Position numbers and translations under genes: made by a program
Source of the DNA: Burkholderiaceae bacterium
GTDB lineage: Bacteria > Pseudomonadota > Gammaproteobacteria > Burkholderiales > Burkholderiaceae_B
Reading direction: 5' to 3'
NCBI GenBank assembly: GCA_021208885.1
Contig: JAJOJF010000047.1
Location: 1-64,000 of the forward strand
DNA: 64,000 nt
The notes under the pieces: model-generated
What the model was told of the DNA's origin: nothing
Seen by the model: the letters and a program-made list of their open reading frames with translations, nothing else
Database searches by the model: none
Shown here: positions 50,084-51,441 of the stretch, one piece after another
Numbering within the stretch: position 1 is the stretch's first letter
How the letters are laid out: each line of letters opens with the position of its first letter

Positions 50084-51157
50084 CTACTTGCCTGAGGTCA
50101 CCAACGTGCGACGACGCGCCTGTACAGCCTGCGCAAGCTCATCAAGCACTGCGACTGATGAATCCCAGTCAATGCAGCCATCCGTGATGCTCTGGCCGTA
50201 CGTTAATGGCTGTCCGGGCACCAAGTCCTGCCGACCGCCTACCAAATGACTCTCGACCATCACACCGATGATCCGAGTATCGCCTGCGGCGACCTGTTGT
50301 GCAATGTCATGACAGACCGCAGGCTGGTTCTCAGGCTTTTTGTTGCTATTGGCGTGACTGGCATCGATCATGACACGCTGAGCTTGACCGGACTTGGCAA
50401 GCTCCTCACAGGCTGCCTGCACACTTGGCGCATCAAAATTCGGGGCCTTGCCGCCACGCAGAATCACATGGCAATCCTCATTGCCTTCGGTTGACACGAT
50501 CGCCGAATGCCCGCCTTTGGTCACTGACAAGAAGTGATGTGGCTGAGAGGCTGCCTTCATGGCGTCAACGGCAATCTTGATGTTGCCGTCAGTCCCGTTC
50601 TTAAAGCCCACCGGACACGACAAGCCAGAAGCGAGTTCGCGGTGCACCTGACTTTCTGTGGTGCGAGCGCCAATGGCACCCCACGACACCAGGTCAGCAA
50701 TGTATTGCGGCGTAATCATGTCCAGAAACTCGCAACCGGCTGGCAAACCCAGCGAGTTGACGTCTAGCAATACCTCGCGTGCCAACCGCAGGCCTTTGTT
50801 GATCTGAAAGCTGCCGTCCAAATCGGGATCGTTAATGAGTCCTTTCCAGCCAACTGTTGTGCGAGGCTTTTCAAAGTAAACGCGCATGACAATTTCGAGG
50901 TCGGCTTTCAGGCGCTCACGAACGGGCTTAAGCCTATTGGCGTATTCCATGGCTGCTTTGGTGTCGTGGATCGAGCAAGGCCCAATGACCACCACCATGC
51001 GGTCATCCATGCCGTGCAAGATGCGATGAATCGCCTGACGAGCCTCATGCACAACATTGCTAACCTCTTCCGTGCAGGGAAACTCCCGCATGGCATGCGA
51101 TGGCGGTGCAAGCTCTTTGATTTCTCGAATTCTGATGTCGTCGGTATTGTGTGGCAC
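50084..51157 (-). CDS. aroG: 3-deoxy-7-phosphoheptulonate (DAHP) synthase, class I
   Basis: VVVIGPCSIHDTKAAMEYA; MRVYFEKPRTTVGWKGLINDPDLDGSF; GTU start: GTG at 51157 preceded by GAGGAG at 6-nt spacing preferred over track TTG at 51178. Confidence 0.94.
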   Translation of the reverse strand: MPHNTDDIRIREIKELAPPSHAMREFPCTEEVSNVVHEARQAIHRILHGMDDRMVVVIGPCSIHDTKAAMEYANRLKPVRERLKADLEIVMRVYFEKPRTTVGWKGLINDPDLDGSFQINKGLRLAREVLLDVNSLGLPAGCEFLDMITPQYIADLVSWGAIGARTTESQVHRELASGLSCPVGFKNGTDGNIKIAVDAMKAASQPHHFLSVTKGGHSAIVSTEGNEDCHVILRGGKAPNFDAPSVQAACEELAKSGQAQRVMIDASHANSNKKPENQPAVCHDIAQQVAAGDTRIIGVMVESHLVGGRQDLVPGQPLTYGQSITDGCIDWDSSVAVLDELAQAVQARRRTLVTSGK

Positions 51158-51204
51158 AGCTAACTCCTCGGATTCCAATAAACGTTTTAAGCATCCACAA
51201 ACAA

Positions 51205-51229
51205 AAACCGCCAGCTTGGCTGGCGGTTT
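51205..51229 (-). terminator. Intrinsic terminator in the aroG leader (attenuator)
   Basis: Minus strand AAACCGCCAGC-CAA-GCTGGCGGTTT then TTGTTTG; lies about 48 nt upstream of the aroG GTG. Confidence 0.8.
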
Positions 51230-51254
51230 CAGATTCGGTTCAGTTTTTTAGGCA

Positions 51255-51332
51255 CTAGGCAACCGACCTTCCGCCAGCAAGGGGAGGAAAGCTAAAAAAA
51301 TAAAACCAGAAATAAGTTGCGTTCTTGACCAT
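51255..51332 (-). CDS. Putative aromatic leader peptide of aroG, MVKNATYFWFYFFSFPPLAGGRSVA
   Basis: 25-aa ORF with YFWFYFFSF run ending 26 nt before the terminator. Confidence 0.75.
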   Translation of the reverse strand: MVKNATYFWFYFFSFPPLAGGRSVA

Positions 51333-51441
51333 GGCGATGAATCTACCACAAATAGCCTGACATAAAGATTGCAAAAAGGCATAGACCCCACAATGTAGCG
51401 CATTTACAACAGCCGCACCAACTTCCAGCGAGATTGGCGAA

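Follow-up and report, generated by a model that had tools for sequence, protein, structure and literature searches.

How do Burkholderiales adjust aroG to the supply of aromatic amino acids? DAHP synthase, the product of this gene, controls the flux towards Phe, Tyr, Trp and the other products of chorismate. In a comparative survey, the TyrR and TrpR regulons were confined to gammaproteobacterial lineages and absent from other classes (PMC5343134). We analysed a 64,000-nucleotide stretch of the genome of a Burkholderiaceae bacterium (contig JAJOJF010000047.1; hereafter the window), for which a sequence-only reading had proposed a complete attenuator upstream of aroG. Conservation, co-occurrence and coevolution among relatives support that proposal. 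We are highly confident in the prediction that a ribosome-mediated transcription attenuator controls aroG, and the gene would very probably be switched on when Phe or Tyr run short.

Leader, terminator and aroG in the window

The locus has the following features.

51340..51348, minus strand: predicted extended -10 promoter element TGGTAGATT, 7 nt before the leader ATG
51255..51332, minus strand: leader peptide ORF MVKNATYFWFYFFSFPPLAGGRSVA, ATG to TAG, 25 codons
51288..51314, minus strand: control codons Y F W F Y F F S F, in-frame aromatic codons in relatives
51271..51281, minus strand: segment 2, CTTGCTGGCGG, 5' arm of the antiterminator core, inside the leader ORF
51261..51269, minus strand: 5' arm of the outer antiterminator helix, AGGTCGGTT, in the last leader codons; coevolves with the 3' arm
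51231..51240, minus strand: 3' arm of the outer antiterminator helix, AACCGAATCT, in the stretch before segment 3
51219..51229, minus strand: segment 3, AAACCGCCAGC, common to antiterminator and terminator; CCGCC invariant in 76 of 76 loci
51205..51215, minus strand: segment 4, GCTGGCGGTTT, 3' arm of the terminator, followed by the U-rich tail TTGTTTG (51204-51198)
50084..51157, minus strand: aroG, 3-deoxy-7-phosphoheptulonate (DAHP) synthase, GTG start, with GAGGAG at 51169-51164

AroG scores 595 bits with the NCBIfam equivalog NF006723, above its cut-off of 568, and its PDB matches are Phe-sensitive DAHP synthase (E 2.6e-155). Read on the minus strand, positions 51332-51255 run from ATGGTCAAGAACGCAACTTATTTCTGG to GCCTAG and translate to MVKNATYFWFYFFSFPPLAGGRSVA*. 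Our re-reading agrees with the earlier one that eight of the nine residues in the run YFWFYFFSF are aromatic (5 F, 2 Y, 1 W), and no rival ORF of 10–60 codons on either strand of the window exceeds five in nine. The hairpin AAACCGCCAGC-CAA-GCTGGCGGTTT, previously read as a terminator, was placed by both the sequence and a terminator scan at 51229-51205, followed by TTGTTTG. This intrinsic terminator folds at -18.1 kcal/mol and lies between the leader and the structural gene, 25 nt past the leader stop and 47 nt before GTG 51157. The alternative arm CTTGCTGGCGG was likewise located where it had been proposed, within the ORF at 51281-51271, and its pairing with segment 3 is worth -25.4 kcal/mol.

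The gene upstream, tldD, ends about 110 nt before the leader region on the same strand. This position would suit an ordinary tldD terminator, the aromatic ORF then being a chance product of a U-rich stretch. Folding of the leader as a whole also fits such an explanation, as the stability of the 181-nt leader is unremarkable (z -0.7). The free-energy z-score is uninformative as evidence, and stability alone proves nothing; what does is conservation.

Conservation of the leader and terminator with aroG

The aroG gene and its upstream region were taken from relatives of the window genome and from 80 named genome records, giving 150 usable upstream regions. Of these homologues, 119 have an aromatic leader followed by a terminator ahead of aroG, with named examples in Achromobacter, Bordetella, Pigmentiphaga, Advenella, Herbaspirillum, Collimonas, Duganella and Noviherbaspirillum. 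The leaders comprise 116 called automatically (at least five aromatic residues in nine) and three with shorter runs called by eye (L061, L118 and L128); L069, which has no terminator, was left out of the automatic set. All 119 leader loci have the terminator, 117 by the pattern CCGCC...GGCGG-T and two by eye. In the Advenella loci L137 and L141 it falls outside the pattern and contains a G-U pair. The terminator is missing in 29 of the 31 leaderless loci (Fisher p 3e-26 for co-occurrence by pattern, a test that ignores relatedness). Neither leader nor terminator was found in Zwartia, Sheuella and related freshwater Alcaligenaceae, or at two loci from 0.8-Mb genomes (L051 and L057). Loss of the aromatic codons or of the CTTGCTGGCGG segment from relatives that keep aroG had been named as an outcome that would speak against an attenuator; the aromatic codons and the GG[C/T]GG core of the segment are conserved with aroG across the order.

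Two single loci are worth recording. In L110 aroG is preceded by a worn terminator and no leader that we could recognise, which may be a step in the decay of the element. L071, a metagenome-assembled genome record titled Lautropia mirabilis, encodes an AroG 94% identical to that of the window behind a near-identical leader, and its title may be misassigned.

Aromatic codons number 6.8 per nine in frame compared with 2.8 and 2.4 in the other two frames (124 relatives), part of this contrast being selection since leaders were picked for aromatic content. The first codon position is T in 79% and the third is T or C in 92%. Even so, the placement of A at the second position and C at the third shows that amino acids are conserved and not mere U-richness. 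The leader is thus a short ORF rich in codons for the product amino acids, conserved and specific to one frame. Among 76 nonredundant loci, Phe is found in every aromatic run, Tyr in 71 and Trp in 15. The last aromatic position is most often Phe (62 loci), less often Tyr (11) or Trp (3). A Trp codon is present in 43 of 124 leaders in the wider set. Because these are a minority, the idea that the leader senses Phe, Tyr and Trp fits the genus of the window and not the element generally.

Spacing and coevolution of the alternative helices

The last aromatic codon and the GGCGG core of segment 2 are separated by a median of 11 nt (interquartile range 11–11, range -1 to 20; 76 loci). This fixed spacing has the form of a ribosome ruler. 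Median distances are 20 nt from the core to the leader stop and 23 nt from the stop to CCGCC. The ruler and the frame-specific codons both argue against a tldD terminator with a chance ORF, as does the joint loss of leader and terminator in many relatives where tldD and aroG stay adjacent. Conservation refutes that explanation in practice, and we consider it extremely unlikely.

In the terminator, GGCGG of segment 4 is invariant across the 76 nonredundant loci, and 94.3% of pair cells hold standard pairs. One pair, immediately outside CCGCC:GGCGG, is A-U in place of G-C in 30 of the 76, a change on both sides, and both-side-change cells outnumber those in all 500 shuffles, although the shuffles ignore relatedness. 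These data bear on how the leader would act on aroG. Attenuators that work through translational coupling, sequestration of a ribosome-binding site or Rho exist, and a leader ending about 100 nt before aroG could be of such a kind. The conserved target, however, is a hairpin with a U tract, and the pairing arms exclude the aroG ribosome-binding site, which makes these routes very unlikely in comparison with intrinsic termination.

The antiterminator is mutually exclusive with the terminator, and its 5' arm lies just past the control codons. The pairing of segment 2 with segment 3 is conserved. The segment 2 core GG[C/T]GG is present in 67 of 76 relatives, and changes in the core pairs mostly affect one side. 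Outside this core lies a second helix, the outer helix, with two arms that coevolve. Its variants include TCGGTT:AACCGA in the window, GGGAA:TTCCC in Pusillimonas relatives and CGGT:ACCG in Oxalobacteraceae. Pairing between cognate halves is worth -9.68 kcal/mol, compared with -8.17 for mismatched halves (z -6.3, 0 of 2000 permutations), and the preference holds with one representative per sequence cluster (p = 0.00035, 18 representatives) and against dinucleotide-shuffled partners (z -8.8). Control pairings tested in the same way had no cognate preference. Of the two alternative structures, the terminator shows compensatory change and the antiterminator shows coevolution in its outer helix.

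A protector (1:2) hairpin between CTTTCC, in the last Phe and Pro codons, and GGAAGG is attractive by eye. The two can pair, yet binding is no stronger between cognate than between mismatched partners (z +2.7, opposite in sign to coevolution), though the sequences may be too conserved to tell. This hairpin, present in trp, was not treated as essential to ribosome-mediated attenuators.

These results also bear on whether the RNA is the target of a regulator that binds aromatics, or itself senses an aromatic amino acid in the manner of a riboswitch. The confinement of TyrR and TrpR to gammaproteobacterial lineages in the survey cited above would call for a local sensor. No structured domain was found besides the two alternative helices, however, and the conserved upstream part is an in-frame run of aromatic codons; we regard this explanation as exceedingly improbable.

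Predicted switch

For a ribosome stalled on the final aromatic codon, before segment 4 exists, the calculated probability of the antiterminator core averaged 0.81, with a median of 1.0. With all of the RNA present, the terminator wins in every ribosome state, including the stalled one (P ~0.99 over the set); in the window with a stalled ribosome, the terminator fold at equilibrium is at -29.7 versus -24.9 kcal/mol. Equilibrium folding was rejected as proof of a switch, as the terminator always wins. Since this is so even with a stalled ribosome, control would have to be kinetic.

The sequence-only reading had the ribosome at the stop covering the core segment. In the window such a ribosome reaches 4 nt into the antiterminator core. 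For most relatives the estimated 5' edge of its footprint falls about 3 nt short of the core, and it is the outer-helix arm that is covered instead. In Advenella L137 and L141 the leader stop comes before segment 2.

From the elements, their spacing, conservation and coevolution, and their joint presence and absence, we infer stalling, termination and the physiological response as follows. RNA polymerase would start at or just before the leader ATG, and the first ribosome would initiate on the 5'-terminal AUG without a Shine-Dalgarno site. A shortage of charged tRNA-Phe or tRNA-Tyr, or in the window also of tRNA-Trp, would stall the ribosome in the aromatic run. Segment 2 and the codons that follow it would then be bare and could pair with segment 3 and the stretch preceding it before segment 4 is made. 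Formation of the core and outer helix would block the terminator, and aroG would be transcribed. When aromatic aminoacyl-tRNAs are plentiful, the ribosome would reach the stop, cover the outer-helix arm and disturb segment 2; segment 3 would then pair with segment 4 and transcription would end before aroG. The mechanism predicted in this way is classical attenuation of the trp/pheA type.

Predicted promoter and translation start of the leader

A TGnTAnnnT motif ends 4–10 nt before the leader ATG, nearly always 6–9 nt, in 68 of 124 nonredundant loci. The chance expectation is 1.0 in 124, with a maximum of 4 in 200 shuffles. A sigma-70 scan of the window leader called no promoter, because the scan needs a match to the -35 hexamer. 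Shine-Dalgarno-like tetramers precede 21 of 124 leader starts compared with 98 of 124 aroG starts. A -10 box this close to the ATG in about half of the set, together with scarce Shine-Dalgarno sites, predicts leaderless translation. In lineages with the close -10 box the leader is probably translated from a leaderless, or nearly leaderless, mRNA. For Oxalobacteraceae and some others, inspection by eye suggests a 5' UTR instead.

The locus is expected to yield a small leaderless transcript that stops at the terminator. This would suit a small RNA or a trans-acting leader peptide as the main product, as with Sinorhizobium rnTrpL and peTrpL, with attenuation of aroG secondary. Every constraint that we found concerns cis elements beside aroG, however, and beyond the aromatic run the leader peptide varies freely between families. 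We therefore think a trans-acting main product very unlikely and favour attenuation of aroG in cis.

Distribution within and beyond Burkholderiales

A covariance model built from the 76 nonredundant loci found the element once, over its full length, in the genome from which the window comes (E 7.5e-14). In a draw of 400 genomes from the order, the model matched 140 at E <= 0.01, including 127 of the 347 of good quality; among the weaker matches, some are bare terminators. Of 69 order-wide matches examined, 66 adjoin aroG; 65 of these have an aromatic leader by automatic call and one, L192, by eye (MAAKLYFYFFANLKLAEGDGC). The predicted attenuator is thus an order-wide element across many Burkholderiales families and no peculiarity of one lineage. 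Fourteen second DAHP synthase genes (47–60% identical) have no aromatic leader, and 10 of the 14 come from genomes with a leader on the main aroG copy. Two contigs of one assembly (G353:C105 and G353:C119; L255 and L256) each have an aroG copy with a leader, and the assembly may be mixed.

Three model matches lie away from aroG. L225 has no clear leader. L227 (G392:C95:17023-17146, minus) has a Tyr-rich leader, MAQTFLQASRAYYYGYRTHLAAPGKLAD, and a GCCGCC...GGCGGC hairpin upstream of an ORF beginning MENTLPWIEHLPCGFPGH, and is possibly a Tyr-sensing attenuator of another gene. In L221 (G360:C1:274402-274535, minus), a Leu-rich leader (beginning MELFIAALLSLLLLSRLKDRAG) and a terminator are followed by an acetyltransferase-like ORF and then leuA, an arrangement suggestive of a leucine attenuator with a gene in between.

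Among 369 genomes drawn from the whole class, only 11 matched at E <= 0.001. Four of them, in two families outside Burkholderiales (L228-L231), have an aromatic leader (FYFWYYFPKPLAEEG in one) with an AroG 71–73% identical, through either transfer or common descent. L234 (G629:C8:69756-69856), also outside the order, has a DAHP synthase of 33% identity, a leader ending in VACFFYFSFFSPALGG and a CCCCCAG...CTGGGGG hairpin; the putative attenuator there is the same logic in a different sequence.

Comparison with known attenuators

The Phe_leader family (Rfam RF01859), the leader of E. coli pheA encoding PheL, likewise has a Phe-rich leader with a terminator downstream, but precedes pheA where the element described here precedes aroG. 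The window scored 34.2 bits against the full RF01859 model, below the gathering score of 55 bits, and none of 8 relatives gave a gathering-level match. In E. coli PheL the gap from the last Phe codon to segment 2 is short, as in the aroG leader, and PheL is not known to have Tyr or Trp codons. The pheL stop precedes segment 2, whereas in the window it follows segment 2; Advenella L137 and L141 share the pheL layout. As in E. coli trpL, competing antiterminator and terminator would be governed by ribosome position, but the amino acid and operon differ and no supported 1:2 protector hairpin was found here.

Leader-peptide attenuation of a DAHP synthase gene has a counterpart in Corynebacterium glutamicum, where AroR, with Phe-Tyr-Phe, is described as the leader in ribosome-mediated attenuation of aroF (Neshat 2014 via PMC11802643; PMC4046766). 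AroR-aroF was reported to respond to limitation of Phe and not of Tyr (Neshat 2014 via PMC11802643). That system belongs to a different phylum, and only Phe-Tyr-Phe is reported for its leader, compared with about seven aromatic residues here. Sinorhizobium meliloti rnTrpL starts with the trpL ATG (PMC7298713), a parallel to the attenuator transcript beginning at the leader AUG that we predict, but rnTrpL is Trp-specific and concerns trp genes.

Implications for control of aroG

Rfam, Pfam and NCBIfam hold no entry for a Burkholderiales aroG attenuator, and the element could for this reason be useful as an annotation marker. A literature search found no description of one, although the surveys of Vitreschak 2004 and Lopatovskaya 2010 could contain a prediction. 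Attenuation of DAHP synthase is already known in kind; the Burkholderiales family is apparently new and may have variant features. We put forward tentatively, at somewhat less than an even chance, that this is an undescribed pan-Burkholderiales attenuator family and the principal control, at the level of the gene, over entry into the aromatic pathway in an order reportedly lacking TyrR and TrpR. It would be a variant with a leaderless mRNA, an antiterminator arm within the ORF before the stop, and a ribosome at the stop that masks the outer helix and not the core.

The natural variants differ in whether the stop precedes or follows segment 2, in the last control codon (Phe or Tyr), in the presence of Trp and in whether the mRNA is leaderless, and make a ready comparative series on how attenuators are tuned. 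For Achromobacter, Bordetella, Herbaspirillum and other Burkholderiales, the element offers a concrete, testable answer to how aroG is adjusted.
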